DNA of 64,000 bases. Source: Tribonema minus. Its lineage: Eukaryota; Sar; Xanthophyceae; Tribonematales; Tribonemataceae. A model generated the notes under the pieces. The model was not told where the DNA came from. It searched no databases and worked only from the letters and a program-made list of their open reading frames with translations. Shown here in pieces: positions 21,790 through 63,594 of this stretch; within the stretch, counting starts at the first letter, position 1; each line of letters opens with the position of its first letter. The translations under genes were made by a program, and so were the position numbers. The DNA lies in assembly GCA_017506865.1 (NCBI GenBank), contig JAFCMP010000130.1:1-64000 (forward strand), in the 5' to 3' direction.

Positions 21790-24002
21790 AATCGGGCAAT
21801 AACTAAATCTACGGAGGGGCCGGCGGTTCGGCGCTGGCCGGCGAGGGCCGCGGCACTTGCAACAGTGCGATGCGGCGGTAAGCGCTGACGTCGCCATCAG
21901 GGGCAATGACTGCGTTCCAGTTGTCGATCACGACACGTGTGAGCGCGCGCTGTAGCGCGAGGGAGGTGCGGCGGCGCCAGAAGGCAACGCGCTGCGCGAG
22001 ATTGTAGCTGCCCTGCGAGCTCTGCTCGGCGAGTGCGTGTAGCAGCGCTTGGGTGTCGCGTGACATAGCGCCGAAGTGGTCAACGGCTGCGGAAAATAGG
22101 ATGTGTGTAGTGGGGTCCAGGGCCCCTGAGACTACGTATGTGTCTATCTTTTCCTGCGAAGCCGATTCAAGCACGCGCTGCACATCGCGCGCGCCCCCCT
22201 GAGCCTGACGGAGGCGGGAGGGACATAAGCTGTCACGTATGGTGACGTCTATGCAACAAGCTACTTTAAAGCCGCCGCGCAGTTTAGTGCACCGGCCTGC
22301 CGCTACCGCGTCGGCGCTCGCTCGGCTGCACTTTAGGGACTGGAAGGCAAACCTGGTTGCTGCCGAAGACGATGTCCATGAACTTGTTGAACCCGTGGCG
22401 CGCCGCGTAGCGGCGGAAGGGGGCAAAGGTGTCCCGGTCGAGACCGCGGAGGTGGGCCACCTGCTTGAGCAGCTGAAAGAGCGCGTCTGCGAGCAAGTTG
22501 TGTCGCGTGACGTTAAGCCCTTGTGTGCAGCGGCGCAGGTGGGCACCTAAGTCCACTGGCTTATGGCACTTGGGGCACCGTGCCTCAGCGGGGGCGGGGC
22601 GCTCCACGCCCAGGTGGCGCCGCAGCGTCTCGCGGAATTCTGGCGGCGACATGGTCTCCGCTGGGTCAGTGCTCGGCAGTTGCGCCAAGAAACCCATGGC
22701 CCCCTTAGAGGCGCCGCTGCGCCACGCCGCGACTGCTTCCAACGCATTCGCTGCTTCAAGCCGGCGCAGCTGCGTGGCGGCGAGCGCTGCGTCTAGCACC
22801 CGTGATAGCGCGGCTTGACGCCGCGGCAGCACGGCGGCCGGCGGGGCCTGGGCAGAGCCTGCCTCGCGCGCCGCCGCTGGCGCAGCGCGGCACGCGCCGG
22901 CGCGAGTCCACATGCCCAGCCCCGCAGCTCCGCCTGCCCGTTGCAGCAGATCGCGCAGTGCCCACCATGCGCCGTTGTCCTGGCGCCAGTCCTGGTACCA
23001 GACCAGGGCAGGAGCAGTGCGAGGGCCGCTGCGGCATCATCGCTGCCGCTGCGCAGCTGCTGCAGGCAGGTAGCTATCTGAGTGAAGGTGACGCCGTAGC
23101 GAGCGTGCTCCAGGACGCGGCTGCGTGCCGCCACTGGAAACGCCGCCAGTGCCGGTCCCATGCACTCGAGGGTACGTGCAGCAAATGCGGCACATGCACG
23201 AGGCGCCGCGCCCAGCACGCCAAAGCCACCGCTCCCCAGCCGCAGATGCATGCGTACCTGCTGATGTGCTAGTAGCGTCACCCGGGCCTCGCCACCCCAG
23301 TCGGCGCCGCGTACCCATGCCGCCCACAGAGAGGGCGGTGCCGCCGCCGCCGCAACCGCCGGCGGGCCGCGGCAATCGTCACCAGCCGCCAGCGCGCCCT
23401 CGTGGGCCGGCGGCGTAACGCCTGCCGATGGCTCCTGCGCCAGCGCAGCCACGGCCGCTAGCGTGATGGCGTCGAAGCGCCGTAGCTCCTCGTGCGTATT
23501 ACTGTAAGGGATGGCGCCGTGTTGCGCGCGACATGCCCTGCGCGGGCGGGGACGGCAAGACGCAGAATCGAGAAGGCAGCCTGCACATCCTCCATCTGCA
23601 CCAGCTCCGCCACCAGGCGGTCGGTGCCGGGGGCACAAAGGGTCGCCGCTACGTGTGCGCGCACGAGGTCCTCGGTGCCGACCGGCACCCCCATCAGCGT
23701 GATGCCGTCGTCACATACTGGTACGGGGACATTGGCGGCGGCGAAGACGGCGGCAGCGCGCTCGCGAGCGCCGCCTGAGGCCGGCACCAGCGCCGCGCAT
23801 TTCGTGACGTTGACCTGAATGTTTAGGTCGCTCAGCGCCTAGGCAGTACAGCTGTTGTATGAAGCAGAACGCGCGGCCAACTTGAAACGTGGCCGAGCAC
23901 CGGCGCGTCACAGCTGGGCGTCATGATGGTGAGGTCATCGAGGTAGCCAAGAAGCGCCAGCTGCGGGAACTTGGCGCGGGCAGCCACCATGGTGCCGCGC
24001 GG
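21790..24002 (-). pseudogene. Frameshifted remnant of a second non-LTR retrotransposon (RT to RLE)
   Basis: Read right to left on the minus strand: an RT box LGYLDDLTIM near 23.95 kb; a post-RT segment with ITLMGVPVGTEDLV near 23.7 kb; a region containing VRMHLRLGSGGFG near 23.25 kb; a CCHC-type knuckle (CPKCHKPVDLGAHLRRC) near 22.57 kb; then an RLE-like CIDVTIRD near 22.24 kb and a C-terminal Arg-rich helix ending near 21.8 kb. These pieces lie in at least three frames, so several indels have broken the ORF. The part 5' to RT is missing. It differs from the 1-10 kb element (YLDD rather than FLDD) and shares its 3' end with the fragment at 10.2 kb. Confidence 0.8.
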
Positions 24003-42643: not shown

Positions 42644-42748
42644 CTACCGTGACACCTCTGCTAGGGAGTGGAGTGCGCAGCGCACCTTGCGGATCTCCTC
42701 TGCGGACAGCTTGTTGAGAGCGCCGGTGCCGAGAACTTTCTTGGACTC
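42644..42748 (-). CDS. HLTF-like exon U: C-terminus and stop
   Basis: 34 codons and TAG at 42644-42646: [20 protein letters not shown] ... LAEVSR. The LSAEEIRK...L tail is the usual end of this family. Acceptor TGCCTGTTGCAG. Confidence 0.88.
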   Translation of the reverse strand, partial: ESKKVLGTGALNKLSAEEIRKVRCALHSLAEVSR

Positions 42749-45700
42749 CTGCAACAGGCAGCGAGACAGGCACATGATGTCAAGCTACTGCAGTATACTG
42801 TAAACAACTGACAAATATGATAGGCACATGAGGTCAAGCTACATTGCAGTCTAGGTAGGCACATGAAGTCGAGCGACGCTGCGGTCTACTGTAAAACATA
42901 GACACAGATGATCCACCGCTGGCATCAACAGGTTCTGCCGGCGCATGTCTCAAATGTCGTGTCATGACATGTTGTGCCACAAATTCTAAAGTGTAATTTG
43001 TACAGTGGCTTATGTCACCGCCATGACTGATTCTGTGGCTGCAATTTGGTCCTTGGCGCAAATGAGAATAGTTGAAGCTGGCACCTGTAAGTATGTCATC
43101 ATGTCCAGTGCCGTGTTTGGCATGTTGAACAACAGTGCCGATATTGCGCGCGCACCCTTTGTGCAACAATGTGCCATCAAAAGGCAGCTGCAGGGTGGCA
43201 TGACTGTTTGCACAGCATGCGTCTGGTTATCGTTTTATGAGAGCAGCCCAGCAAGCTGCATGCTTGATAGGTGCCACATGTAGGAATCTACTGCTCGCAG
43301 GCACCAAAAACTAGAGTTTTCTGGAGCTCTCACAATTATTATACCAGCCATGGGAGCGCCCCAAGTATGCGAGATGACACGCGCTCCAATCTTCACCGTG
43401 ACGTGCCTGCATTTCCAGTACGAGTACTGAACAGCTGTATTGGTCTCAGCAGTTCGCACCGCCAGAATCAGGTATTTCCTGGGACTCTCCATTTCTACAA
43501 TAAGTCAAACTTTCATAAATAATGAGTACCCAAAACAAAAAACAGTTGCACTTGCAATTTCACATTAACCCACCTGCATCTCCAGTATCTTCGGTTCCAG
43601 CGTGTCTTCGGTGATGAAGCGGATCACTTTGACTGGCTTCTTCTGTCCGATGCGGTGCACACGGTCCATGGCCTGGTCCTCCACACTGCAATAGAGGGAT
43701 GCGAAAAGAGGATGCGAGATGTCAGATTAAATCGAGACAGCCCGTGCGTGATAATGCTGTAGGCATGCTTCAATCATCGTCAGAGCAAGCCCGCACCGTG
43801 ATGTCGGATTAAATTGAGCAAGCCGTGCACAATAGTGCTGGAGGCCTGCTTTCGATTATGATTAGAGCAAGTCCGCACCAGACATGCAGGTGAGACACAA
43901 GGTGAAGTCTGTGCCAGTATCACTACCATGAAGTACCTGCTGATGATAACCTAGCTACAGACTAGCTGTCTGCCCGAATTATTGCACACTGGCGCGCGCG
44001 AATTCGCGCACAGTAGCGCACACGATGCACCACCTGCTTGGACCTCAGGATAAAGCCTGCCAGACCCTCGTCTCAACCTTAAGCTTCTGTAACTGCTTAA
44101 CAAGGCGCGAGTTGAAACACCAATGGCAAAGTGAACGCCACTGCTTACTTCAGATGCAGTCAAAGAGGGGGGGGGAAATAGATGCACCAACAACAGCAAA
44201 GTGAACGCCACTGCTTACTTCCGATAAAGTTGAAGATGGAAAAAAGAAGTGATGCAAACAGAAGGCCGTACTCAATGCGGAGCTGCTGAATAAGAGCACA
44301 AACAGCAAGGCACCAAGCGTATGCCTGCCTGGCAAACTGTTAGTGGGGCTGCAATCGCACTTATATACAGGCTTGTCTGTTCTTCTTGAAGTTGTGGAAA
44401 AGGCTTAAGTTTTGATTGCAGCATTCCACAATCCCCCACGGGTATGGTGCTCCACCAGGGCCAGCACGATATCCATAGCACGAGCTCCAGCGTGCGACTT
44501 TCCAATTACACAAATAACACAACGGTGTAGCCCCGCACTACTGGATACTTGTGGACGTGTATATACTAAGGCGCCGGCACGATGTAACGCACCTTCCATT
44601 CCACCACAGATCCATGAGGAAGACGTTGTTGGCCGCCGTCAGCGTGATGCCCGTGCCACCCGCCATGAGTGACACCAGCATCACAGTCGGCGCCCGGGGC
44701 CCGCTTTCCTCGGAAAACGCCTGCAGGGAAACAAGTCATGAGAAAGGCTCAACAGGCGTGCAGGGAAACAAGTCATGGGATAGGCTCAGCAAGCTTGGGC
44801 AGCTGATGTGGCAGAGACACCAGCAGGGGGGCGTTTATATGACGGGACTATGGAAGCAAAAACTACCACGTTCACAACCTGACATTGGACACTTGTCGGC
44901 AGCTATTTTATTGATGTCTGTGCCACTGCTAAAAGCAGAAGCAGTACCGTGCAAATGGCAATAGCGAAGGGACACTCTCCTGGTATCTGGGTGTGTACAT
45001 TGCAGTTATCACTGCTGCTGCTTGCAGCCCTTCACATCAGCCAGTCGCCCCATTGAAGTGCCAGGGTGCTCAATGTAAGTGCATGCGAGAAAATGACAAA
45101 TGCACTTGACGTACCACATTGCTCCAGGCCTGCGACTACATCAAATTGCCTAGCTGAATGGATTAAAGTACTAGTAGATATGCTGGTACTCACCTTGAGA
45201 GAGGCGCGCCTGTTGTTGGCTGAGCACTTGCCATCCAGACGCGCGCACTTGAAGCCGGCCGCCTGTTGCAGCGCTCAACAGCAACAGCAGAACGCACCTC
45301 GAACCGTCACGTGTGGCCCAAGTAGGCAGAAGGCAGTCATGAACTTGCACGGCAAGCATGAAGGACAAAGTGGCATTAAGTTGAAGCTGTAGGTCTACTT
45401 TCAAGCACGGCACTAGGGACCGAAGCAAGGTGGGCAACTTGCGCCTCACACGCAGCGGAATATGTGCAAATCGCTGAGCTGTGCCACAACGCAGCATTTT
45501 GCAGGTGCAGCAGCAGTGTGGTGCTTAGCGTTCTAACAGGTGGTGTTGATAGGCAGCCGGTGCTGCTGCCTGTGCGCAAACCTCTGAGCATTGAACATAC
45601 TACCCATAGGTGGCATAATGCCATCTACCTGCACAGCTGCGCCAGGGCGCAATGACAGTGTGGGCTCAAGGGCGATTCACAAGGTGCAATCCGCAGGCAC

Positions 45701-47781
45701 CAAATTCAAAGTCATGGCGAGGGTCAGGGCAAAGCGCAGCTGGGGGTTGGTTCAATGTTCTGCCCCACAATGTAGCAATCCAACTACAAAGTTTAATTCC
45801 GCCGTGATCAGGGCATCCTGCCTCGTGTCATGGAGGCAAGCAATCAATTGAATGTAGACAAGGGAGAGGTGAGTTCAAAACTGCATTGCACAGTGCTTCA
45901 ACGTACCACCAGGTGACGCTCGATGACGTCGAGAAATCCCGTGAACTGCGAGAACACGACGGACTTTTCGCTGGCGTCGTTGGCCTTGATGCCCTGGAGC
46001 GCCTGCAGCAGCGACGCCACCTGGCAATCAACACCGCAGCACAGCGCTCAGGTGAGCGTATTGTGGTTCATGTGTATTCATGTGTATTCACTTTTCCTCA
46101 GAAAGAGCCACTCCGTATGGACAAGGTCTGCATGAAGTACTTGCAGCAGGGTCGCCACCTGGCGATAAACACCGCAGCACAGCGCTCAGGTGAGCATTTT
46201 GTGATTCATGTGCATTCACTTTCTGCGACAACGGATATAGAAGTACTTTGAGATATTAGTGGTTTTCACGCAGTGGTGAGACAACAATGAGAGGAAGCAG
46301 AGGTCAATATATGTCATTCCAGGCGCCAGTCAGCAGACCACACTCTGTCAGCATGCCTTGAAGCGCCTGCAGCAGGGCTGCCACCTGGCAATGAACACAA
46401 CAGCACAGCGCTCAGCTTTCATGGAAACGAATCAAAAGATCGTGGAGCTCTAGGTGACAAGGTGTGGTTAGCCGCAAGTGCCTTCCACCAATAACCATAT
46501 TGTGGTTTGTGTGTATTCTTTTTCCCCAAAAAGAGCCACTCCGTACGGACACGTTCTGCATAAAGTACTCGCGGCAGGGCCGCCACCTGGCAATGAACAC
46601 CGAAGCACAGCGCTCAACTTTAATGAAAACGAAGGGACTGCACAAGTTAGGCCGCGCGTTGCATGGGCGCTCGGCAGTACTCAGCAGCATGTATGCCACA
46701 AACTCTACTGTTTGCAATGGCATGTGTTGCTTAACCTAGCGCCCTCAACCCTACAGACGCTAACCTTAGCCTTCTCACCCTACAGCAGCGTTTCATCCAT
46801 GGGAAGAATCAAAAGACCGTAGGAGCTCTAGGTGCAAGGTGTGGTTAGCCGCAAGTGCTTTCCACCAATGGCCGTGGTCGCCGCTGCTGCGGCATTTGGC
46901 CATGAGTCAAACAGTGCCACCGTATTGTGGTTCATGTGTGTTCACTGTATTAAAAAGAGCCACTCCGTACGGCAAGCTCTGCATGAAGTACTTGCAGCAG
47001 GGCCGCCACCTGTAAGGCAGACACCACAGCGCAGAGCGCTTGACCGTTGACTGACCAAGGTAGAGTTAATGATGTGCATTCATATTCCACGATGAAGCAT
47101 GTACTTTCCAGTGCAGATATTGGTGATGTTGAAAACGGTGAGGCAATGCCTGAAGGTATGCACTTGTGAAGCACTTGTGAAGCACAGTGAGCAGATCACA
47201 ACATTTCAGCATCCATACCTGCAGAGTTTTGGCAGAGGAACCCTGCAGTTCCGGAGCTTACTCGACACTTACTCCGTGCTGTTAATCGTACGCGCAGCAA
47301 GTGACAGTGGCATCCTTACTGTAGCAACGCCCTACCCTTAGGGTTAGGGCTAGGGCTAAATTGTGCTTGCGCGCAGTCCAGTGCCCAAGTCCATATTGCT
47401 AATTTGGCAATGTCAGGAACAAGGCAGCATGCTTCAACAATGAAGCATTTACCAATCCAGTAGGGTTGGGTCCCGGTCCCCCTGTTCGGTATCGGGATGA
47501 TGGTGTTCGGGAATGCACCGGTATCGGGATGCAATACTGGTATACCGGTTAGGCTGCGTGGCATGGACCGGAATGGACCGGGATTGACCGGAATGACCGG
47601 TAATGCCGGCTTCCGACCGGTATTTATCCGCTCTTACGGTTACACAGCAACGGTTCCTCGCGCACAGCAGCAACAACAGCAGAACGACAGCAGCAAGTGA
47701 CAAGCACCCATCTTGAAGGCTCAGTAAAGAGATCCAACCTTCATTTGTGCGCACCAAAACGTACCAACAGCAGGGGCCTCT

Positions 47782-47814
<33 letters not shown>

Positions 47815-50800
47815 AAGCAACATGGCGCCACTGCAAAAAAAAACGCTAGCTCATGCTGCCGCCCGCTGCTTCTGCTTCTTGCACCAATCATCGACTGTGT
47901 CCCAAGCGCTCTTAAGCCACACCAGTAGGGTGACTGCCTCGCCAACAAGGCGATTGCGGTGCTTAGTCGCAGCCAGCCGCAGAAAACAGCCGCTCAGAGG
48001 GAGCTGAAGTGGCAGGGACACAAAGCACACGGTGTGCGAGCTTAGACAGGTGCGGAAACTGCACCATGTGGTCGCGCCACCAATGCAGAGGGTTTGAAAG
48101 CTTCTCCCCCTCGTACATGGCCAGAATGGGGAGGAAAGAGGCTGGCTCTTAAACTGCTGCACGGTGTCCTTGCACGCCCCACAGACAACGTACTCGACCA
48201 TGTCGGCATCAGCATAGTTGTAGAACGTGAGCCCCACGTTCCACACTGCCGACATGGTCTTCGTTGTAGTCTTCTTTAGCAGCGCCCAAGTAGTCAGACG
48301 CTGCCACTTGGCCTCCATGTCTTCCTTTGCCTTGGCTTTGCCTGCTGCTGACCGTTTTTTGGACCTCGCTTGAGGCTGGCGAGCCTCGTCCTCATGATCA
48401 GAAGACACCAGGTCGACCGCTCCCACCTCAGCGTTACTCGCATCGTCAGCCATACTACCAGGCTGCACACTACAGCGATCTCACAAGCCAAACCCAAGCC
48501 ACAGGCGGGCTTTTTCAAAAATGGACCCCAAGGTGACCGTTTAAGTAACCCTGTGACGTGATGTGTGGTGTTTGAGGGTGCAAAGCGATCATAAATGCTG
48601 TGGAGACATGAAAGAGTAGTGCTGAAGTGACAACAAGTCACTAGGGGGCAGTTTGAGGCTGTTTATCACCAAATCCCGGTTCAGCCACCTCCCTCGACCG
48701 GTATCGGGATCGGGATGACCGGATTTCCGGTCTGCGACCGGAAATCCCGGTTCCGGGACCCAACCCTACAATCCAGACACCGTTGACACCACTGAGGGCG
48801 CACGTGGCCGCTATGCGGCGGTATTGAAACGGCGTGCAGAATTCCAATGGCAATGGCTTGACTCATCCGAAGTACGTTGCACTGTCCTAAGCGTTGCATA
48901 TCCTGCCAGTGTCATGTACGCTGCTGTTGAGCGCTGGCTAAGCGCTGCCATTGAAGAGCGTCCTGCTGTTCATCTTTGGTGTTTTGTGAAGCGGGCAGCA
49001 CGTTGTATCATCAAGCAGCACATCAAGAATATGGCATTGGGTTCAGATGTAATCAATGAATCACGGCCAGTATTGACAGATACTCACTTTGGGTGGCGGC
49101 GCGTTCGCTGAGTCCTTGCTTGACGCCGCTGCTGCTTCCGCATCAGGGGGAGCGTTGCCATTGGATGTGTTCTGGTCTTCCTGTTTGGTGCACACATTCA
49201 TGAATGAGTCAGCGGCCAACATAAGGGGATGCTGACAAGGCCACTGCAGTTGAATCATATCAAGAATGTGTGCAGGTGTGTGCCAGCAAATGAACAGCTT
49301 GAGTTCAACAAACATACATACTCGCGTGTGGCGTCAACTTCAACTGTGAAGTGCTGGCTGTACCCCCGGTTCAACACCTGTTTGTGCCTGTCCAGCATTC
49401 TGATTGGCACACTGCGCGCATGGTGGCGACAAGTAGACAGGACGCTGCTGTCGCGTGTGTAACTGCATCTGCAACATCACAATGAAATGCTGTAACTGGA
49501 TACAGGCTTCAGCTGATGGTATCTGCTGCTGCCAGCAGTGACAACTGTCCGCTCCTGCACCACACACGGCGGGCAATTGCAGGTGCGAGCTTAAAATCCT
49601 GGTCAACTGTGGCATCAGACTTGAAACACAAAACTGCACCTGTTGCACAAGCCAACTTCAACTTGCCTTCTCGGCAGCCGCCTTGAGCTGAGCGCTGGTA
49701 ACAATGTCCGCCTTGGTGAACTCCGCGCGGCACAGCGGGCACTTGCTGCCGCCGCCGTAGCCAGTGCCGCCGTGGCCTGCAACACCCTCCAAGCATCTGG
49801 TGCAGAATGCGTGGCCACAGATCTGCAGCACACAGGCCTGCGGACACTAGAAGCATTTGTTGTCAGCAGCTGCTGAAACTCGGGTGCAATCTGCAAACAG
49901 AATGATAAAGGAAAGAATCATTACTATAATGATAAATCATAAGCTTCTGATCAACATCGACTTTCAATCCCTCACACAAGTGCAGTGCGCACAGTGCCTG
50001 TCGGCCGTGAGTGTGATGATAGGCCATGTGCATGCCGGCTACGCATTTAAGGCACATTTGGTGCTGCATCTAGGGTGTGAATGCCGAGGTATGCTAATAA
50101 AAGGCCACGTGCACGTCGGCGGCACGACACCGCGCAAAAAAAGTAGTTGGGCAAAGGTGGGGGATCAAGCTTTGCCAGCACCTCCAGGCAAATTGCAAAC
50201 TTTGAACTTATACATACTGACTGCCGGTAAAAGAATACATACAGGCGCGTCACCTGCTCTTTTGCCAGCAATCCAGGCAAACTTTGAACTCTCCGCCATC
50301 CTCTGCAGCCAATCAATCGGCATGGCATAGTAGCCAATACATCACACATCTTTGCAAAACATGGATATATACTTGCAGGCCGTGTTAATGGGCATACCAC
50401 CTGTTCCTCGGCCAGTGGTTCCAGGCACACCGCACACTCACCACCGTCCTCCGCAGCCGATCAATCAATCAGCATAGCAGAGTAGTTCAATAAAAAATAT
50501 ATGTTCGGATGCACACAGCATTGATGGGCACGTCACCTGTTCCTCAGCCAGCGGTTCCAGGCAGACCGCGCACTCGCCACCTTCGTCTGCGGCCGCCTCC
50601 TGCAGCACGCCCCGCAGCTTGTCAAACAGCTCCTTAGCCTTCTCTGCCGTGATGGTGGACTTCTTGCCTTTGGCCTGCACGCAGCGCGGAAGGTGACAGG
50701 TGGCGGCAAGTGATTTGGGACTCGTGAGTAGGTCTTGAGTCGCACCGCCCCCCGAGGCGCATTTTGAAAAGGCAGGTGCAGCTCCTGCTCCAATGGCTGC

Positions 50801-53800: not shown

Positions 53801-56800
53801 TTATCATTGATCAATGTAGTACATAGCCTACATACCTCGATGGTCTTGGGCGGCAGGTGGTCGGCGAGCAGCGCCTTTGCTCGTAAAACCACTTCGCACA
53901 CGCTTGCATATGGGGTAATGCTCAGCAAACAAAAGTGCCACCTACACACATACCTCAATGATCTTGCGGCAGGTGGTCGGCGCAACCTACATTGGATGAT
54001 GCTCAGCAAGCAATAGCGCTACCTACTATACACTGTTAGTAACAGGAATACCTCAATGGTCTTGGGCGGCACGTGGTCGGCGAGCAGCGCCATGGTGCGG
54101 CGCAGGCACAGCGAGCGCAGCAGCACGCGCAGCCGCGACAGGCCGTCCAGGTCGCCGCGCATAATGGGCCCGCTGCGCATGTGAAGGTGACGGGCAAGGC
54201 AACTTCAGCAGGATGTGCAGGCAACTTCAACTGGCTGTACAGGCAGATAACTTGACTATGGAGCGTGAAACCACTGTGCATACTTTGAAGTATGAATTTG
54301 GCCAAGCGATTTTTACATAAAGTGTCGCCAGCTCGCGCGCATGTATGTATCTCGTGCCTTCACACTCTGGAGCACGTGCATGTACCCATGATGTTGAGAG
54401 ACTGGAGCCTCAGTCGTCGAAGACTTCCACTTGATTGAACCTGTTGTTAGATGCAGCGGGGTGGTCATTGACTACAAGTAGGCTGCTCTCGCACGATGCT
54501 GGTGCATCACCTGTTTGCTGGGATCACACCAGTAAAATATTGATAAAGTTCATGCACGCAATTGAGAGGCAAGCCTCCTACCTGATGGAGCGCTTGAAGA
54601 TGCCAGCATCGCTGACAGGTGGCAGCTGCAGGAAGCTCAGCAGCGAGCCAATGTCGGCGGGCTTGTTCTGGAGCGGCGTGCCGGTGACGCACCAGCGCCG
54701 ACGCGTCTTGAGCGCTGCGCCTGCGGTAACATCAAGTTGCAGTTTGGATGGATGACTCTCATGCTGAAAAAAACAATCGCGATGAAGTGATCATGATTAT
54801 CAGCAGCACGCATGCATGGGGCCTATGAAGCCTACCAAATCAACTCCGGCAGCGCCGCATGCTAATCAGAATAATTGGGGGGTTGCGCAGTTTCGTCTGT
54901 GGGCGGCGCATAATGTGGCGCACCTGTGCAGTGCCGGTCCACATCCATAAACGTGCATGTGAATGCATATCTCTTATTAGTTGAAACAGACAAACGTTTG
55001 TCAAACTGCAGTACTGCGAGTTCACAACTGCGAGGTCATGCACAGCATTGTCCGCCGTACATGCGTGGGCTGTTCAGCGATTTCCCTTCCAAAAACATCA
55101 CTTTGCGCAGCACGTTTGGCATTCACCCTATCCTGCAAGAACAAAAGATCTCTGAGCATCGTCTTTAAAGACAAAACTTGTCCAACATGACACTGACACA
55201 GTGTGTGTCAAAGTTTGATGCCACGTTTCTGGTTGTCCTTTTGCAGCCATCACAGCTACTTAGTAGTGACCCCTTTCTATTCTATGAAGCCAGGGTACTG
55301 ATACCCCAGCGGTGGACCCCACTCAGCACTTCAATCAAGTAACTTCAACTACTGCGATCCTTCTTTTGTGCTCACGCGTTAAAGCTACAGTAAGGGTCGG
55401 GGGGGTAGGTGTGTACTCACAGGCTTTGTGCACCTTGGTCCTGGCATTGCGTATGACGTGAGCCTCGCGCCTTTGAGATACGGTTAGGGACAGGAGTAGG
55501 CAAGTACTCACAGGCTTTGTGCATCTTGGTCCTGGGATTGCGTATCACATGAGCCTCGTCCAACACCACGCGGTGCCAGTCAGTGCTAAGCAGCACCTGG
55601 CTTGCGCCGCGCTTGCGCTTGGCTGGCACAGCGCTCCCGCCACCCTGTGACAAGGCGCACATGAAGCGGCAGTTTCAGCAGGAGTGAGATTACGTAACTG
55701 TAACTTCATGGGGCTGGCATGGCACGCCTGCCACACTGATGGCACGGCAGGTGAAGCGGTGGCTTTAGCATCATCGGAGAGAAGCACCGGCAAGTTACCC
55801 TTGAACTCCATGTGGCATTGGTTCGTGGAGATGTTTGGAAGTCAATGTGTATGACGAAGTGCATGCATGGCAGTTCAGAGCATGTCTCTCAGCTTGTCTA
55901 CATGCAGTGAGACAGGTTCAAACCTTATTTGGGTCTCCACGCCCTAGTAGCACAGTCAGCAGAGGCATGCGAGTGATCGCTCCGGCACTAGGGTTAGGGT
56001 TAGGGGTTAGCCTTCTGCTCTCAACAACCCTGTCATTAAGGTTAGGGTTAAGGTTACAATTAGGCTTTGCCACCAATAGGGCTAAGGGCCAGGTTAGCTG
56101 TCTGCAACAACAACCCTGTAGGGTCAGAGTTAGGGTTAGCCTTTTGCTCGTAGCAACCCTGTCACAGCGCTCACCTCCGCATCACCGCCGTCAAACTCCG
56201 CCGCAAGTGTCCCGTAAGTGGTAATGACCAGGTCCATCTGGCCGAGCTCGCCATCGCCAAACATCTCCGCGCGCCCCGCGCCGTGGTACGTGCACACGCG
56301 CAGCGCGCCATCGCGAATGTGCGACAGCGCCTAGGGGGCGCAGAAGGTTGGAGTTGAAGTTAGCAATAGGTGTGAGAGTAATTGAGCACTGCCAAACATC
56401 TCCGCGCGCCCCGCGCGGTGGTATGTGCACGCGCGCAGCGCTCCATCGCGTATGTGCGACAGCGCCTAGGGGGCGCAGAAGTGTGGAGTTGAAGGTAGCA
56501 ATAGGTCGTGAAAGCAATTGAGCACTGCCGAACATCTCCGCACGCCCCGCGCCGTGGTACGTGCACACGCGCAGCGCTCCATCGCGTATGTGCGACAGCG
56601 CCTAGGGGGCGCAGAAGTGTGGAGTTGAAGTTAGCTATAGGTCGTGAAAGCAATTGAGCACTGCCGAACATCTCCGCACGCCCCGCGCCGTGGTACGTGC
56701 ACACGCGCAGCGCACCATCGCATATGTGCGACAGCGCCTAGGCAGACAAAGGGTTAAAGAAAGGGTGAAATGGGGGCTTGAAGCTGGAAATGGGTCAGGT

Positions 56801-59800
56801 GTAGGAGTGGTTCAGCATTGCCCAACATGGCCTTGCGTCCACGGTGTGATACGTATGTGCACACACGCAGCGCTCCATCGCGAATATGCAACAGTGCCTG
56901 CCCCGTGATGTGTACGTGCACATGCGCAGTGCTCCATCGTGAATGTGCGACAGCGCCTAGGGGGCGCGAAAGTGCAGACAGGGGGTTAAGAGAAGGGTGA
57001 AAGGTGGGGTTATAGGTGGAAACGGGTCAGGTGAAGTGGGGTTGAGCATTGCCCTACATGTCCTTGCGTCCACGGTGTGATACGTACATAACTATATATG
57101 TATGTGTATGTTCACATGTGCAGCGCTCTAACGTGGACATGCGGCAGTGCCTGGGAGGGTGCAGGGCATTTGAGGGTTAGGCGGGTCACCACAGTGTAAG
57201 CGGTAGGGTAGAAGTTAGCGCTGGGTGGTCAAGCATGATAGCGCTTTCAGGAGCTGGCAATGTTTGATATCCAGCAAATCTATCATGAACGGCGTAATCA
57301 GATCGCCTAGCCCCATTGCGCTTTTCCGGACGGTGCAACAAGCATAAAAAACAGTTGCCCAGTGAGACATGAAGTGGGTGACACAGCCGGACAAACATGC
57401 CCCCCCCGCCTCTTCCCACACAGTCGCCCTACCCTTGCTCTTGGAAAAGGCAAAAGGCATTCACACAGATTGACCTGCATTGCATGCAGAAAAGTGCTGA
57501 CTCTACCTGCGTCTACTAGTCCGCCAGAACGCATATGAGGCAGATGCTAAGGTTTTGCACCCTGCTGAATCAACCCCCTTCCCACCACCCGTGCACAGGC
57601 AAAGCTAAGACAAATTGCATCAACCATAGCCCCCACCTGAGTCTCCCAGTTGGCCAACACGCTCATGGGGCAGACAATGAGAGTCGCGCGCCCGATCGAG
57701 TCGTCGTTCGCGGCCGCAGCTGCCTTTGCTGCTGCGATAGCCGCCGTCGCTGCCCGCTCCTTCTGCAAGGGCGGAACAGGGGCTGTTGTCAGTGACCATC
57801 ATTGCTGTTGAAGAAAGTGCATCTTCGATGACAAGCGTACTTCAATTCTTCAACTGCCATGAAGGAAAGGACACGGAACAGTGGCTCCGCTGGGCGGCGG
57901 AAATGATCAGCCCCAGGTAGGGCATTCACATGCTTCAACGCATGCATTCATACGCGGAACTTCAAATATGAAGCGCGGGTGACAGCGCTCACATCGGCAC
58001 CGCCACATTCTTGAGCGCTTGTACTCACTCAAAAGTGAAGTACACGTGTCAGTGCTCACCTTCGGGCGCGCAATCTATGCAAGCACCTTGCGGCGCTCAT
58101 GAGCGTCTCCATGGCGCCCGCCAAACATGATGACTTCAGCTTCTACTTCAAGGTTTTTATCATGGTATGGGAAGCAATGACAGATGGCAGCGCAACACAT
58201 AACTCGGCCGTGGCACTTCCACATTCCTTAGCACATCATCAGCTCAGGCACCTACACATCCTCCGCGTCTGCTGTCATACACATAAGTAAAAAATTAAGT
58301 ATCCACTCAAAGTTGGACAGCTACACATCCTCAGTCTCTACTATCACACACGGATGTGCAAATATCAACTTGAAGTTGGACGTGCAGCAGTGCTCACCTT
58401 GGCGCGCGTCATGTCCGCCAGCACCTGGCGGCGCTTCGCGGGCGTCTCCATGGACTCCCAAAACAAAGCAGCTTTTACGTCAAGGTTTTCCAAAGGAGGG
58501 GGACGGCAGCTGGCGGCGCAACTAAATGCTTAGCCCCCGCACTTTAGTATTCTTCAGCAAATGATCAGCCCTCGCACTGTCGCATTGTCATCATCTATTG
58601 TCATACACGGAAGTACAGATGTCAAGTATCCACTTGAAGTTGAATGTGCAGCAGCGCTCACCTTGGCATGTGCGATCTCCGCCAGCACCTTGCGGGAAGT
58701 AAAAGATTAAGCACCCACTTGAAGTTGGGCGTGCAGCAGCGCTCACCTTAGCGCGTGCGATGTCCGCCAGCACCTTGCGGGAAGTAAACGGTTTTAATTT
58801 AGAAGCACCCACTTGAAGTTGAATGTGCAGCAGCGGCGCTCACCTTGGCGCGCGCCATGTCCGCCAGCAAGTATCCACTCAGCGTCTGCTGTCATACACG
58901 GAAGTAAACACTCAAGTACGCACTTTTTTATGTGCAGCAGCGCTCACCTGAGTGCGTGCGATGTCTGCCAGCACCTTGCGGCGCTTCGCAGGCGTCTCCA
59001 TGGACCCTGCATAAGCCTCGGGCGTCACCGGCTTCCCCGACAACTTCAAGATGTTGTGGACGAGGACGTCTTTCGTGCCGCTGACGGGGGCCCCAACTTC
59101 CTTGGCGCGCGACTTGAGGTTGGCCACCTTCATGTGTTGAAGTTCGGCGAGCAGTTCGATGGTCGCGGTGGGCAGCGCAGAGAATGCCGCCGACGCCGCC
59201 GCTGCACAGGCGGTCCAAGGTTTGGCATTGAGATTTGCGAATAGTGCCCTAGAGCTGAACTTCATGTTGTGGCGCTGAGATCGGAAGCGTGACACTGGGA
59301 TCGAGGGCTAGAATTAATCCCTTCAAATGTGAAGGCGCCCTACATCAATAAATACCGCAATTGAGTGTAGATTCCGGCGCTGCTGCAGTAGCTGTCGACA
59401 GTAAAGAGCGCTGTCGCTAGCTGCTGAACCTCTGTGTTGGGCTGCCGGCTGGAGCTGGCCTACCGAACACGTGAGACCTTTCCAATACTGAACACCCATG
59501 CCTCGAACGCTAAACGCTTGCACACAAAGTCTTTTGACTGGTGGATACGGTGGTACTGTTTGACTAGTGGCCAATTGCTGCAGCAGCGGCGACCACGGTT
59601 ATTGGTGGAAGGCACTTGCGGCTAACCATCCCTTGTCACCTAGAGCTCTACGATCTTTTGATTCGTTTTCATAAAGGTTCACTCAGCACACGCCGCCGCG
59701 AATCAGTCAAAATCCGGGTGCACATCCAGACATGTAGGTAAGCTGCAACACAACACGCCCCTGTGATGCCCGGCGCAACCATGACTGGAATCGAATCGAA

Positions 59801-62800
59801 AGGTCGTAGAGCTCTAGGTGACAAGGGGTGGTAAGCCGTCAAATTGAATGCCTTCCACCAATAAGCATGAATCACGTTTTGCAGGGTTTCGCCATACCGT
59901 CAGCTGCCGCTTCCTCCGCCGCCGCCGCCGCTGCTGCTGCTGCTGCTTTCTCCTCTGCGCTCATTTCTGCCGGCGCCGCCGCCGCGGCTGCTCCTGCTGT
60001 CTCCGTATCGCCATTTGCCGCGTATGTGACTCCCGTGGGGGGGTTGACGAGCATGAGCGCGAGCACCTGCAGCACCAGAAGTGGTGGAGAGTCACAGTTG
60101 AAGTTGCTGATGCGAAGCATGAGTGCGAGTACCTGAAAGCACCGCAGAACAGTGGTGGAGAGTCTAAGTTGAAGTTGTTGATGCGGATCACGCGCAAGCA
60201 GCAGTGCACGTCAACTGAACAGTCACAAATGTCTTCATACAATGGGATGCAAAACGGCAACCCGTCGTAACCACATCGCATGGCACAAGTACACGAGAGT
60301 CTTGTGAACTACTACAGTGATGTGCCTGTGCTGCTCTCAAGCGCCTGTGCCCTGCTGAACTTGAACTTCCACAACACAACGCTCAGCACGGTGACTTGCC
60401 TGCAGCGTCTTGCCCAAGCCCATTTCGTCAGCGAGTATGCCGCCGCGCACACTCTCGGGTTTGCTGCAGCGCGAGATACCGTATGGCAATGCACAGGCAC
60501 AGAAGTGAGGCCACGCAACAGATTGTCATCTTTGACATGACTTACCGGCAAACAGCGAGGATACCGCCGCGTACACTCTAACCTTAACCCTAACCCAAAC
60601 CCCTGACCCGAACCCTAACCCTAAGGGTTTGCTGCAGCGCGAGGTACCGTATGGCTAGGCGAAGGTACAAGGTTGAGCGTTGGCCACGCAACAGACATCA
60701 ATTTCAACTTTACACATCGGCAAAGAGATCTCAAAATGTAGACGCGATGCGAGGGATATGCATACGCAATCTATGCTGTGGTTGATGCATATTTGTGTGC
60801 GGCACGTCAACTTCGCCGTACTAAGCATTCAAAAACCTGGGCCAGAGTGTCATGTTCCCAATACCTCTGCTAATGATTCCCTCAGGTGCCATGCAGAAAC
60901 AGATACAAGGGGGAAGGGAAGGATCAGGGAACCCAAGACCACACACATTTACTTCACAACAGTCATTGGTGCATGCACGACCTCCACCAAAATCTGTAAC
61001 GTGTAACGTTGCTTCAACCTCAATCTTATGGACAGTGTACCCTCGTTCGCAACCTCGACCCTAGCTTCCAGCTTTCGCAATCTCAACCCTAGCTTCCAGC
61101 TTGTCCTGTCCCGTGTAGAGTCACCCACCTGGTACTGGAGCTGTTTGTGATGGTGTTGAACCACACCTGACGGCCCTGCTCTACGCGGGCCTGAGTCATC
61201 ATGGAAAAGGGAGAGCATGAGGCCACATTGTCAGGTATCATGGAAGAGGGACCGCATCAGGCCACCATTGTTGGTCGGTATAAGAACAAGAGGGTTCTGA
61301 AGTGATGCACATTGGTACACGAGCAATGAATGACAGAGCAGAGTAAGGCCAGCGCCAGTATCGCCATGCAGCAAGCTGCCAGAGCGTGGTGCGTACAGCA
61401 TCCCGTGACACTGGGTTTCAGAGGGTATAACAGCGCTCACGTAAAGTGGGCAACAGTGCTCAGTCCACTACATGACAGCGCTCAGTGGAAGGTGTCACAG
61501 CGCTCAGTCCACAGAGAGGCAACGCTCAGCTGCAGCATGGTGTGACGCTCAGTGCATGGCATGGCAGCGCTCGGCCACAGCATGGCAGCGCTGTGTAGAA
61601 GGTGTGACAGCTCTCAGAGCAGACTTCAACAACACCTGTGCCCTGTGCGGTGGGTGCACTGCCAACATGGCTCAACCCAACGTGTAAGACGGGCACACTC
61701 GGCGCAGAGAAGGCTTGGATGGAGGGGGCAATTGTACGACAGGCTGAAGTCTCAATGAGCCCGTCTGATCACTGTCCCCCAAAGACGTGCAGAGATTATT
61801 AGTAGCTGTGGCCACGATGAAGATCAGTGCTCTCAATGGGGGCCGTCACCACTGTTAGCACGGCCTCTGCTCTATAGCTTGCCCGCAATAATTGCCGTCT
61901 ATGCCAATAGACTGCCACTTACCGCTCGTACTTTATTCTGATACCAAGGAACGAAGCAGAAATAGGTGACGACGATCGAGCGTGAAACAAGAACATCAAC
62001 TAGAAACCCTAATAATCTTGTGCTCCACTACTGCGTGAGTAGGGGCGGGGAGGTAAGGGGTTGGGCGGGTTGAAAAAGAAGGTCACCCCGTGCATTTGAC
62101 GTACGTACCTCCCAAAAGGGCGGCAGCCCTGACGGGTCTGGGTTCTTCTCCCTGCGCAGCATGTAGGCCAGGCCCTGACGCAGGGCGCAGCAAACAACAA
62201 ACGTGGCGCAGCAGACGCTGAGAGACGTGGTTTTCAAGGGCATCGGACGCATTCCAGCTTCAGCATCTGAGCGCTGCTGATGCAAACGCACTGACACGGC
62301 AGTGATGATCATGGCATGGCTGGATCTCTCATACAAAGAATTCATGAAAGTGAAGTGTTTGGTGTCAATATACGCAAGCACTGAGCACTGAAGTTACGTG
62401 CTCGTGGATGCTGAAGAGTGTGTCAGAAGGACCCTCAACAAATTCACAATCCTGCTTTGGTCATGCCTGCCGGAAAACTTCTGTCGAGGCATGGCATAAA
62501 GCGCTTCCTGCTGCTGGTCGTGGTATGCAGGCACGTTCGGTTGCGTTTACAAAAGCACCAGGTAATGCCGCGCACATAAAATCAACGTGCTCACAGAATC
62601 GCCTCTGCAGCTTGATGATTCGATCGCCTGCTGCTAACAATACTTGCAAGGTACCTACAAGACAGCATGCCCTCCGGTATGACCCTGCCACTGTGGCTGT
62701 TGTGCGCCATGTTATATGCGAGGATTGCACAGAAGCACGTGATACTGAAGCGTACTGACATGTCAGCTAGCTGCGGTGCATCGTTTGCATGCGTTGACGG

Positions 62801-63594
62801 CAGTGGCTGCGGGTGAAGTAAATTGCCCACGAGTACAGCACAAGGTACAGTATACAGCACACATCCCTTTCTGGTGGGGGAACAGGGGCGCGTTGAGCAG
62901 CTGCGACGAGCGCTGTTGTGCTCGTCTTGCGCAACACCGCAGGGTACTAGCTGAAATGCCCAAAGGAGACATTATGGCCGAACGCGTGCACAATCCACAT
63001 ACCTCCTTCTGATGGGGGAAGAGGGGCATGTTGAGCTGCCTGACCCTAGTACTTCTACAACGCAGGTAAAGTGTACAGCATACATACCTCTTTCTGGTGG
63101 GGCAAGAGGAGCTCGTTGAGCAGCCTGACCCTAGTACAGCACCAGTACAGCATGCAGCATACATACCTCTTTGTGGTGGGGGAAGGGGGGCACGTTGAGC
63201 TCCTGCGACGAGCGGTCCTGCTGCGCAACACTGCAAGGTACTAGCTGATGCGGCCCGAAAGAGAGGCCATGGCTGAGCGTGTGCGCAACATACCTCCTTC
63301 TGGTGGTGGAAGAGGGGCACATTAAGCAACCTGACTAACGGCCTAGTGCAACGCAAGGTAAAGTATCCAGCATGCATACCTCTTTCTGGTGGGGGAAGAA
63401 GGGTACGTTGAGCAGCCTGACCCTAGTACAGCGCAAGGTACTAGCTACCCAAAGGAGGTATCATGGCCGAATGCGTGAGCAACCTACATACATACCTCCT
63501 TCTGGTGGGGGAAGAGGGGCACGTTGAGCAGCTGTGACGCATCTTCGCCAGCCTTGACGGCGGCGGCAGCGTCTTCTTCGGAGACCACCAGCAG
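42644..63594 (-). CDS. HLTF: HLTF/RAD5-like SNF2 ATPase with RING finger and inserted SAP domain (5' partial)
   Basis: Twenty-one exons (listed separately) join with consistent phase at all 20 junctions into 858 codons plus stop. Order: FPHQKE lead-in, PPFWE and WFNTITN motifs typical of HLTF, motif [14 protein letters not shown], an Ala-rich linker and SAP domain, motif Ia [16 protein letters not shown] box, TGTPLQNKP, a C3HC4 RING, then the Helicase_C motifs VVFSQF, AGGTG and [15 protein letters not shown]5 proteins are nuclear DNA translocases and ubiquitin ligases that polyubiquitinate PCNA and remodel stalled forks. All catalytic residues are present, so the gene looks functional. Any N-terminal HIRAN domain would lie to the right of the window. 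Introns average about 0.9 kb and are packed with junction duplications. Confidence 0.93.
42760..42900 (-). repeat. Three short intronic tandem units upstream of exon U
   Basis: AGGCACATGA(T/G/A)GTC(A/G)AGC units with CTGCAGT and CTGTAAA ends recur three times, without exon sequence. Confidence 0.7.
43574..43685 (-). CDS. HLTF-like exon T: motif VI
   Basis: One base plus 37 codons: [20 protein letters not shown] ... LEPKILEMQ, with the arginine fingers of motif VI. Acceptor CTATTGCAG, donor GTGGGT. Intronic tandem copies without exon sequence lie at 43.70-43.88 kb. Confidence 0.93.
44110..44235 (-). repeat. Intronic duplication in the HLTF-like gene
   Basis: GCAAAGTGAACGCCACTGCT followed by TACTTC occurs twice about 75 bases apart, with a G run between. 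No exon sequence is included. Confidence 0.75.
44593..44720 (-). CDS. HLTF-like exon S: AGGTG (motif V)
   Basis: 42 codons plus two bases: [20 protein letters not shown] ... FLMDLWWNG. Acceptor TTCCCTGCAG, donor GTGCGT. Confidence 0.93.
45194..45262 (-). CDS. HLTF-like exon R: RLDG
   Basis: 23 codons, phase 0: [20 protein letters not shown], then SLK. Acceptor GCTGCAACAG, donor GTGAGT. Confidence 0.92.
45907..46020 (-). CDS. HLTF-like exon Q: VVFSQF (Helicase_C start)
   Basis: 38 codons, phase 0: [10 protein letters not shown] ... [20 protein letters not shown]. Acceptor GATTGCCAG, donor GTACGT. Confidence 0.92.
46021..47050 (-). repeat. Array of four extra copies of exon Q's acceptor edge
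   Basis: Copies at about 46130-46215, 46345-46425, 46540-46625 and 46960-47045. Each keeps CCAG or ACAG before GTGGC and the first codons (VA-LLQ-L). Three also share an AAAGAGCCACTCCGTA(C/T)GG flank. Confidence 0.9.
47781..47815 (+). repeat. CAG/AGC trinucleotide run in the hAT element
   Basis: About ten to eleven AGC units within the transposon's 3' part. Confidence 0.9.
47851..48468 (-). pseudogene. Remnant hAT transposase (BED-like and dimerisation pieces)
   Basis: The N-terminal part has an acidic/basic start and [15 protein letters not shown] ... [15 protein letters not shown], resembling a BED finger. About 300 bases on, in another frame, [16 protein letters not shown] ... [15 protein letters not shown] is the classical hAT dimerisation motif. 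A further one-base shift follows before [11 protein letters not shown]. The roughly 400-residue catalytic core is deleted. Confidence 0.85.
49088..49180 (-). CDS. HLTF-like exon P: polar linker
   Basis: 31 codons, phase 0: [20 protein letters not shown] ... PPPK, a low-complexity linker between RING and Helicase_C. Acceptor CACCAAACAG, donor GTGAGT. Confidence 0.75.
49667..49846 (-). CDS. HLTF-like exon O: second half of the RING finger
   Basis: 60 codons, phase 0: [20 protein letters not shown] ... CPLCRAEF. With exon N this completes a C3HC4 RING, the E2-binding ubiquitin ligase domain. Acceptor ATGCTTCTAG. The donor is AAG|GCAAGT, the second GC-AG intron of the gene. Confidence 0.93.
50158..50485 (-). 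repeat. Three progressively decayed copies of the RING-1 exon edge
   Basis: 50390-50485 still reads [18 protein letters not shown] then GTGGTA; 50244-50333 reads [13 protein letters not shown], with the first Cys lost; 50158-50210 keeps only a trace (FKVCNLPGG). The first two share upstream ATCAATC-rich flank. Confidence 0.9.
50537..50674 (-). CDS. HLTF-like exon N: first half of the RING finger
   Basis: 46 codons, phase 0, ending [15 protein letters not shown], the first two zinc ligands. Acceptor GCTGCGTGCAG, donor GTGACG. Confidence 0.92.
51154..51246 (-). CDS. HLTF-like exon M
   Basis: 31 codons, phase 0: [20 protein letters not shown], then [11 protein letters not shown]. Links lobe 1 to the RING insertion. 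Acceptor GCTTCACAG, donor GTACGT. Confidence 0.85.
51660..52545 (-). repeat. Array of about six exon-L-derived mini-exon copies
   Basis: Copies centred near 52475, 52330, 52185, 52050, 51930 and 51690. Several keep both an acceptor-like site before GTGCA and the CGACAG|GT donor, but lack the middle of exon L. Copy 52288-52374 is intact: 29 codons, phase 0 at both ends. The 52430-52520 copy has a GC donor, and the most distal copy has lost its donor. Confidence 0.9.
52577..52732 (-). CDS. HLTF-like exon [11 protein letters not shown]
   Basis: 52 codons, phase 0: [20 protein letters not shown] ... [15 protein letters not shown], the end of the first RecA-like lobe. Acceptor GGAGTTCAG, donor GTACGC. 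Confidence 0.92.
53213..53398. repeat. Inverted pair of interstitial telomere-like tracts
   Basis: GGGTTAGGGTTAGGGTTGGGG at 53213-53235 and CTAACCCTAACCCTAACCC at 53374-53397 face each other (G-rich then C-rich on +) about 140 bases apart, inside the intron between exons K and L. Confidence 0.85.
53690..53990 (-). repeat. Three decayed copies of exon K's donor edge
   Basis: At about 53690-53735, 53818-53882 and 53935-53990, forms of LPPKTIE followed by GTGGGT or GTATGT. Shared flank GATGCTCAGCAAGCAA(C/T)AG marks the repeating unit. Confidence 0.88.
54052..54172 (-). CDS. HLTF-like exon K: LCLRRT ... PPKTIE
   Basis: One base plus 40 codons: [11 protein letters not shown]...[13 protein letters not shown]...PPKTIE, the conserved RAD5/HLTF motif IV region. 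Acceptor CACATGCGCAG, donor GTATTC. Confidence 0.9.
54582..54720 (-). CDS. HLTF-like exon J: TGTPLQN (motif III)
   Basis: Two bases, 45 codons, two bases. [20 protein letters not shown], then LLSFLQLPP. Acceptor TTACCGCAG, donor GTAGGA. Confidence 0.92.
55413..55468 (-). repeat. Duplicate of exon I's donor edge
   Basis: Repeats the last 48 or so bases of exon I and its GTGAGTAC donor 91 bases downstream, with a few substitutions (minus: [13 protein letters not shown]). Confidence 0.85.
55512..55644 (-). CDS. HLTF-like exon I: DEAH box (motif II)
   Basis: 44 codons plus one base. Basic lead PAKRKRG, then [20 protein letters not shown]. Acceptor CTTGTCACAG, donor GTGAGT. DEAH coordinates Mg-ATP. 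Confidence 0.92.
55985..56160. repeat. Degenerate telomere-like repeat cluster
   Basis: Several TTAGGG units (for example AGGGTTAGGGTTAGGGG) mixed with a repeating GTTAGCCTT(C/T)TGCTC...CAACCCTGT unit, in the intron between exons H and I. Confidence 0.75.
56175..56330 (-). CDS. HLTF-like exon H: CTYHG ... DLVITTYGT
   Basis: 52 codons, phase 0. Contains [11 protein letters not shown] and [11 protein letters not shown], the segment between motifs Ia and II. Acceptor GCCCCCTAG, donor GTGAGC. Its acceptor edge is tandemly repeated upstream. Confidence 0.92.
56331..57160 (-). repeat. Array of exon H acceptor-edge copies, 136-bp period then decayed units
   Basis: Three very similar 136-bp units (centred near 56430, 56565 and 56700) each hold the CTAG acceptor, about 65 bases of exon H and intron. 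Three more divergent units follow at about 56815-56900, 56900-56960 and 57050-57155. The first units keep an uninterrupted minus-strand frame of over 110 codons. Confidence 0.92.
57637..57762 (-). CDS. HLTF-like exon G: motif Ia
   Basis: 42 codons, phase 0: Ala/Lys-rich start, then [18 protein letters not shown]. Acceptor CCCTTGCAG, donor GTGGGG. Confidence 0.92.
58045..58870 (-). repeat. Array of five decayed copies of exon F's donor edge
   Basis: Copies at about 58806-58870, 58711-58790, 58625-58700, 58365-58460 and 58045-58125. Each reads (minus) a form of [10 protein letters not shown] followed by GTGAGC; the 58365 and 58045 copies reach back to METPAKRR or METL. All keep the GTGAGC donor, and most share a downstream ACTTGAAGTTG motif. 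Confidence 0.9.
58948..59201 (-). CDS. HLTF-like exon F: SAP domain
   Basis: Two bases plus 84 codons. The segment [20 protein letters not shown], then [15 protein letters not shown], fits the SAP helix-extended-helix consensus (hydrophobic-x-LK...G....G.K..L...I). It is followed by a basic [15 protein letters not shown]. Acceptor GCCTGTGCAG matches exon E's phase; donor GTGAGC. An ATG upstream (59265) opens the same frame, so a separate small SAP transcript is possible. Confidence 0.8.
59898..60066 (-). CDS. HLTF-like exon E: end of motif I and Ala/Glu linker
   Basis: 56 codons plus one base. Starts [12 protein letters not shown], completing the Walker A helix, then an Ala-rich acidic linker. 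Acceptor GGTGCTGCAG, donor GTATGG. Confidence 0.85.
60118..60185 (-). repeat. Degenerate duplicate of exon E's acceptor edge
   Basis: GAGTGCGAGTACCTG...AGTGGTGGAGAGTC and TTGAAGTTGTTGATGCG repeat the real junction region at 60056-60120. Confidence 0.75.
60400..60463 (-). CDS. HLTF-like exon D: Walker A / motif I
   Basis: One base plus 21 codons with [16 protein letters not shown]. Acceptor CGCGCTGCAG. The donor is CAG|GCAAGT, a GC-AG intron. Lys of GKT is the ATP-binding residue. Confidence 0.93.
60555..60660 (-). repeat. Duplicate of the Walker A exon's acceptor edge, split by telomere-like repeat
   Basis: Matches 60436-60486 (acceptor, CAAACCC, then GTG/GTA-CGCGGCGG) but carries about 45 bases of imperfect CCCTAA-type repeat inserted exactly between CAAACCC and the AGAGTGT that follow each other in the real exon. 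Confidence 0.85.
61129..61190 (-). CDS. HLTF-like exon C: WFNTITN
   Basis: 20 codons plus two bases ([20 protein letters not shown]), acceptor ATGACTCAG, donor GTGGGT. The (Y/F)NTITN motif precedes the Walker A exon in HLTF relatives. Confidence 0.9.
62109..62174 (-). CDS. HLTF-like exon B: PPFWE
   Basis: 22 codons ([16 protein letters not shown], then LPPFWE), phase 0, acceptor CTGCGTCAG, donor GTACGTACG. The LPPFWE motif is a hallmark of HLTF relatives. Confidence 0.9.
62861..63495 (-). repeat. Array of six extra copies of exon A's donor edge
   Basis: Copies of the CTTTCTGGTGGGGGAAGAGG-type sequence (minus: [12 protein letters not shown] then GTATG) lie at about 62861-62910, 63000-63052, 63080-63140, 63160-63215, 63288-63340 and 63373-63430. 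Most keep the GTATG donor. Longer shared flanks (GTACTAGCT...GGCCATGGC) show that the duplicated unit included intron. Confidence 0.9.
63496..63594 (-). CDS. HLTF-like exon A: FPHQKE lead-in
   Basis: 33 codons, phase 0 on both sides. Acceptor CGCTGTGCAG, donor GTATGTATG. Ends [10 protein letters not shown], the conserved start of the SNF2 module. The donor edge is repeated six more times downstream. Sequence to its right (63595-64000) shows no recognised exon. Confidence 0.85.

Follow-up and report, generated by a model that had tools for sequence, protein, structure and literature searches.

The window analysed here comprises positions 1-64000 of contig C130, one of 554 contigs in the 158-Mb assembly of Tribonema minus, and includes a RAD5/HLTF-like gene on the minus strand (63594 to 42644), defined by exon modelling together with Pfam and PDB matches. 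The model comprises 21 exons separated by GT/GC-AG introns, carries a single uninterrupted frame and ends in a stop; since the first modelled exon starts at an acceptor, the gene appears to extend upstream, with its 5' part lying outside the 64-kb window. The host protein displays the domain order SNF2-rel_dom (Pfam 1.2e-71), RING (2.2e-8), and Helicase_C (1.1e-17), the RING finger being placed between the SNF2 domain and Helicase_C as in RAD5/HLTF-type proteins, and the best PDB match is the RAD5 structure 6l8n (E 1.9e-66). A SAP-like stretch (58948-59201, minus strand) lies within the helicase core, with a Pfam E-value of 2.4e-4, below the cut-off. Intron 16, the longest of the gene (3067 bp), contains a hAT family C-terminal dimerisation domain (47966-48148, minus strand, Pfam 6.7e-15), and short telomere-like TTAGGG/CCCTAA runs occur in introns at about 53205-53235, 53380-53400, 55990-56130, and 60575-60625, as well as in some donor flanks of other genes. 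The rest of the window includes (i) an open frame at 1229-9946 (plus strand, 2905 aa) in GC-rich DNA, whose match to reverse transcriptase (RVT_1, 2.3e-6) is weak and falls just short of the curated cut-off; (ii) two GC-rich open frames at 21809-22546 and 22793-23710 (minus strand) with no Pfam match; and (iii) a PT disordered repeat protein fragment at 27558-27974 (plus strand, Pfam 1.7e-7). Elsewhere in the assembly, two RuBisCO large-subunit-like fragments, with one stop each, are found at G000 C334:714136-714324 and C112:516888-517037.

Self-comparison of the 22 kb carrying the RAD5/HLTF-like gene discloses 89 tandem pairs at E<=1e-3, including two within the alanine-rich exon 5; the same procedure yields none in each of 20 Markov-shuffled control sequences. 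A preliminary description of this DNA had assigned partial copies to the edges of ten exons, lettered A, D, E, F, H, I, K, L, N, and Q, which correspond to modelled exons 1, 4, 5, 6, 8, 9, 11, 12, 14, and 17. Direct copies are present at all ten edges, each on the donor or acceptor side originally stated, exon 4 being the weakest case. The donor-side arrays, all on the minus strand, comprise (i) array A at exon 1 (63496-63594), with six half-exon copies at 62832-63539; (ii) array F at exon 6 (58948-59201), with five copies by BLAST and four by a strict ungapped scan at 58050-59010; (iii) array I at exon 9 (55512-55644), with one copy of a 91-bp unit (47 exon and 44 intron bases) at 55371-55558; (iv) array K at exon 11 (54052-54172), with about three copies at 53608-54096; (v) array L at exon 12 (52577-52732), with about six copies at 51494-52650; and (vi) array N at exon 14 (50537-50674), with two copies at 50244-50595. 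The acceptor-side arrays, also on the minus strand, comprise array E at exon 5 (59898-60066), with one copy at 60050-60190; array H at exon 8 (56175-56330), with three ~136-bp copies that are young (94% identity) and further, older ones at 56256-57158; array Q at exon 17 (45907-46020), with about four copies at 45989-47037; and array D at exon 4 (60400-60463), with one old copy at 60457-60727. The latter shows 73% identity over 104 bp and extends only 7 nt into exon 4 as placed, so that it is scored as interior under a 10-nt rule. Pair identities within the gene range from about 69% to 97%, in line with the wide spread of ages first suggested, and the remaining 11 modelled exons show no junction-crossing pair at E<=1e-3.

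The gene also contains interior arrays, which the preliminary description had not listed. Three minus-strand single pairs are counter-examples to junction anchoring: one at 61454-61617, without exon sequence, one at 44110-44239, and one at 43715-43879, which stops about 30 nt before the exon 20 acceptor. Further interior arrays lie at 55989-56164 (telomere-like) and 46420-46869, with a weaker pair at 42768-42912. Altogether, positions 42501-64000 hold 15 arrays, compared to five, each a single pair, in the adjoining 32.5 kb (10001-42500). A tandem duplication of 106 bp at 17599-17811, outside the gene, shows 99% identity and is apparently very recent.

The generality of the pattern was addressed in 71 introns with both edges known, from 28 gene segments, comprising 20 introns of the RAD5/HLTF-like gene and others from SNF2 and kinesin loci. 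These introns are bracketed by consecutive exons of SNF2 or kinesin domain genes, with splice sites subsequently refined, and derive from 47 SNF2 and 81 kinesin (73 + 8) matches used among the 75 and 132 matches listed. Matches with a stop in their span (17 of the first 120) were retained. Two exon pairs without an acceptable splice solution were left out, as were purely exonic arrays and hits below 45 bits when arrays were counted; three loci enter only the edge scan described below. The regions were picked by domain matches before their arrays were known, in a way that favours runs of several consecutive exons, so that the share of introns with arrays may be inflated while the balance of crossing and interior arrays should be unaffected. 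The splice consensus of the sample is MAG/GTRAGY at donors and GCAG/G at acceptors (the slash marks the junction), which resembles that of green algae, but KIF9 chains (294 and 293 bits) score above the Chlamydomonas chain 7n61_0X (282 bits) against one kinesin fragment.

The 71 introns contain 50 arrays, of which 20 cross a donor, 15 cross an acceptor, and 15 cross neither. Random placement of the units within each intron predicts 14.9 crossing arrays, compared to the 35 observed; without the RAD5/HLTF-like gene the figures are 26 of 35 against 11.7 expected (binomial p 9e-7), and the gene-bootstrap interval of the crossing fraction is 0.55-0.88. Crossing arrays occur in 15 of the 28 gene segments, among SNF2 and kinesin loci on many contigs. 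Two outcomes that the preliminary description had named as contrary to its reading, absence from other genes and equal frequency in intron interiors and intergenic DNA, are therefore not what the sample and the adjoining 32.5 kb display. More than one repeat pair is found in 19 arrays, every one of which is junction-crossing, and in none of the 15 interior arrays. The junction-crossing arrays are direct tandem units with periods of 59-403 bp, as in minisatellites, and make up 22% of the 55,111 sampled intron bases (26% counting all arrays). Introns with junction arrays have a median length of 853 bp (n=30), 1.75 times the 486 bp of introns without any array (n=31). This evidence for a junction preference covers two gene families and one gene of a single genome, at the level of DNA.

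A strict ungapped scan of 219 edges, using a threshold of 25 set from a control in which 2 of 219 edges still pass (scores 28 and 32), is positive for copies at 31 of the 115 donors and at 19 of the 104 acceptors. Genes differ in this respect, with copies at most edges in some and at none in others (17 genes, p 1.6e-4). Donor copies comprise the last ~20-90 exon bases, the splice site, and some intron, and acceptor copies are the mirror image. Accordingly sided, they lie downstream of 30 of 115 donors and on the wrong, upstream side of 2, and upstream of 19 of 104 acceptors with none on the wrong, downstream side; no inverted copies (score 22 or more) occur at the 219 edges. Exon homology ends within the exon in most arrays, the 90-nt limit of the scan being reached at three donor edges and one acceptor edge. 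Tandem duplication of whole exons with both splice sites does not describe these arrays, as copies are one-sided and half-exon. The accumulation of cassette exons once proposed for these introns finds no support for the same structural reason, each copy having a single exon edge without a partner splice site. As had been remarked, the splice dinucleotide is usually preserved, with GT or GC in 62 of 70 donor copies and AG in 31 of 38 acceptor copies. However, a duplication that straddles the junction and spares the protein must put the copy and its splice site on the intron side, and neither the side nor the kept dinucleotides are thus evidence of a splice-based mechanism.

Several simpler determinants of position were considered but not retained. 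In the bracketed introns, 11 of 20 donor arrays begin 42-48 nt inside the exon, as would suit a constant offset from the splice site, but the spread is broad in a wider scan. Inspection by eye of the breakpoint contexts revealed no motif or microhomology, edges that have copies do not differ in splice-site strength from those that lack them, and a GC-rich hotspot is contradicted by interior arrays having a GC content of 0.547 compared to 0.548 for their introns. Dispersed exon copies are absent from the RAD5/HLTF-like gene beyond a few matches of the alanine-rich exons 5 and 7, and three exon-edge queries against the whole genome (best candidates scored) match their own locus only, in place of the near-identical sequence across the introns of many genes that characterises Introners. 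Rogers-type intron gain, in which a duplicated exonic AGGT segment turns into a new intron, is likewise set aside, given that the units contain intron sequence and lie next to an intact exon, within an intron already present.

Copies beside a conserved exon remain recognisable for longer, a detection bias that was therefore simulated by combining uniform tandem duplication, neutral decay, exon constraint, and detection as for the real data. Uniform random duplication, acting with a selective filter and easier detection beside conserved exons and without any junction preference, is an unlikely account of the arrays. The filter and the detection advantage are real: with matched intron lengths (three settings of 40 runs) the mean crossing fraction is 0.32-0.34, compared to 0.30 from placement alone in the 71 introns, and an earlier simulation with shorter introns reaches 44-55% crossing, which makes the magnitude of the excess dependent on intron length. 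Nevertheless, the maximum with matched lengths is 0.54 against an observed 0.70, and multi-pair crossing arrays number about three on average (in settings with ~50 arrays) and at most 7, against 19. Multi-pair interior arrays, absent from the real data, average 4.5-4.9 in the two settings with ~50 arrays, although single runs reach 0 or 1. The preliminary claim that random duplication should not favour junctions so strongly thus holds beyond both placement and simulated detection bias, and in other genes too.

The size of the preference was explored by suppressing interior events. A 6-fold suppression comes near the real numbers, with 35.8 crossing arrays (real 35) and 16.8 interior ones (real 15), but yields only 7.9 multi-pair crossing arrays compared to the real 19; 8- and 12-fold settings raise the latter to 15.6 and 26.5, but with crossing totals of 54 and 67, which are too many. 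The data thus call for a several-fold preference, and even then large arrays are clumped more strongly than independent events would predict: at least three copies are found at 9 of 115 donors, compared to 34 of 864 in a simulation with duplication at the live edge.

The divergence of the copies bears on how the arrays grow and on whether they are maintained. In the 25 arrays with several copies, similarity to the exon drops with distance (mean rho about -0.4; permutation p 0.004-0.008), and 13 of them have their best match in the copy nearest the exon, a modest excess over the 9.0 expected; it is as if new copies tend to enter beside the exon. The gradient was discarded as a means of discriminating the live edge from exon-like sequence, the simulated spread being too large. 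Differences common to at least two copies are mostly synonymous (101 of 130), which indicates that the exon changed while its copies kept the old state. The private changes of nearest copies comprise 17 synonymous and 38 nonsynonymous, compared to 15.3 and 39.7 expected (ratio 0.86), giving no sign of coding constraint; nearest copies drift like non-coding DNA. Relative to expectation, the nonsynonymous-to-synonymous ratio stands at 0.66 when all copies are taken together (interval 0.49-0.87) and at 0.62 for farther copies, a lowering that follows from older copies retaining exon states later replaced, and coding selection on the copies was accordingly rejected.

Selection could also retain the copies as decoy or reserve splice sites, regulatory half-exons, or cassette exons, a reading that we regard as quite improbable. 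It would agree with the preservation of the exon-like part together with the splice site, preservation falling off steeply immediately beyond the donor consensus, with the slow decay of exon-like halves described below, and with the overall ratio of 0.66; yet the drop is partly expected because only the real site is constrained, and the overall ratio is lower than that of the nearest copies in the manner expected of older copies. Moreover, 8 of 108 copies contain in-frame stops, each copy offers one splice site, and its dinucleotide is kept no better than the neighbouring exon-like bases. From the preliminary proposal that either a mechanism acting at splice junctions or selection for splice signals is at work, the junction preference therefore stands, the sidedness and the dinucleotides are uninformative, and selection for splice signals goes unsupported.

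The two halves of the copies evolve differently. At donors, copy-copy mismatches per site are 0.112 in exon-like and 0.311 in intron-like halves (53 pairs, nine edges, comprising HLTF exons 1, 6, and 12 and loci on C53, C124, C178, C548, C168, and C516), and at acceptors 0.147 and 0.227 (20 pairs, nine edges), with the exon-like half slower in 16 of 18 arrays even though the two are expected to be of the same age. When donor edges are simulated under neutrality with the same detection, the ratios are 1.2-1.9, a range that contains the real acceptor value of 1.5 but not the donor value of 2.8; donor exon-like halves decay slower than neutrality allows. Conversion from the exon refreshing the exon-like half, or faster change of the donor-side intron, would fit. 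Faster mutation at the live intron edge was tried in 55 triples of one topology, whose intron-like part shows 292 changes private to the real edge and 233 private to the nearer copy, counts too close for such a process to explain the excess.

The well-preserved exon-like halves, compared to their intron-like counterparts, and the gathering of large arrays at few edges beyond what independent events would produce lend some weight to an exon-anchored recombination process, which we consider a tentative alternative. Duplications would start anywhere, but a conserved exon would stay a good recombination partner, and unequal exchange and conversion would multiply and refresh the exon-like part, while interior duplicates would diverge and stop. 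Simulated unequal exchange with uniform starts (three unfitted settings, eight runs each) increases the proportion of crossing arrays and gives crossing-to-interior ratios of 1.0, 1.4, and 3.0, around the real 2.3, with ~7-22 arrays per 71 introns compared to the real 50. However, 53-63% of the interior arrays turn multi-pair in these runs, against none of the 15 real ones, and frequent conversion would erase the synonymous states that the copies so often keep after the exon has lost them.

Two further sources of the copies can be addressed more briefly. Insertion via RNA or cDNA, or by a mobile element, is very improbable: no support was found for it, the hAT-like fragment lies in one intron away from the arrays, and the copies carry intron sequence and are tandem, direct, local, and edge-specific. 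An assembly artefact is hardly credible, as the copies differ from one another, keep old synonymous states, and are present on many contigs.

The explanation that we favour, to which we give about an even chance, is that recurrent local tandem duplication preferring exon edges lengthens introns with decaying half-exons. Short direct tandem duplications, typically of ~80-200 bp, would recur across exon edges at a rate per base several times that inside introns. Where a duplication falls within an exon or takes in the whole of it, the protein would be harmed and the duplication lost, whereas one straddling an edge would spare the exon and push a half-exon, comprising the exon end, the splice site, and adjacent intron, into the intron, where it presumably stays unspliced and decays. 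Repeated duplication would move older copies outward from the exon as the intron grows. The copies are local, direct, and half-exon in form, prefer junctions in both gene families and in the RAD5/HLTF-like gene, drift as non-coding DNA when nearest to the exon, and lose similarity with distance; we infer in addition that the preference is mutational rather than selective. As a guess, the initiating lesion might consist of nicks, staggered or in pairs, close to live boundaries between exon and intron, which are then filled in and end-joined. On the other hand, 15 of 50 arrays cross no junction, and no single preference setting fits everything.

A more specific form of edge-preferring duplication, which we regard as rather doubtful, is that working exon-intron boundaries are duplicated time after time by a DNA-level process tied to them through splicing, paused transcription, R-loops, or exon chromatin. 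If so, splicing or transcription would mark where introns grow, and past exon states would be preserved, as in a fossil record, in about a fifth of the intron sequence sampled. Intron lengthening is usually ascribed to transposons and random drift; if exon edges were true duplication hotspots, intron growth would have an endogenous, gene-linked engine. The half-exons store earlier synonymous exon states, and exon evolution could thus be dated within one genome.

Among known systems, minisatellites comprise tandem units of similar size with diverged copies and varying copy number, but the arrays described here are anchored on exon edges and begin with a unit that belongs to a working exon. Tandem exon duplication and cassette exons also repeat exon sequence beside its source; here, in contrast, a single edge is copied, so that the copies lack a pair of splice sites of their own. 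The accessible parts of the Haematococcus genome paper (PMC7617258) describe no such arrays, and the papers listed by a literature search, judged on title and opening portion of the abstract and mostly outside subscription journals, include no account of junction-anchored arrays or of exon-edge copying that enlarges introns genome-wide. The stwintrons of Lipomyces, according to the portions of the report available, arise from 4-7 nt donor duplications that generate nested introns, and their authors attribute the donor duplication to end joining of asymmetric breaks (PMC7138796). Both cases share a duplication at the 5' splice site, whereas the units reported here measure ~60-400 bp, include tens of exon bases, and occur at acceptors too. 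Introner elements, as presented in the available text of PMC3443670, resemble the present arrays as a genome-wide intron change linked to transcribed genes; their related sequences are dispersed between genes, while the arrays of T. minus are specific to their own edge. Tandem duplication at splice sites is a known route to new introns (PMC4974935, PMC3443670), and in the potato case, judging from the accessible sections of PMC4974935, an intron-exon structure is duplicated, the likeness lying in a tandem duplication that creates extra splice signals. The cases set out in the available parts of these two papers make a new intron or exon; in T. minus, an existing intron is lengthened beside an unaltered exon, the same edge is copied repeatedly, and several genes show the pattern.
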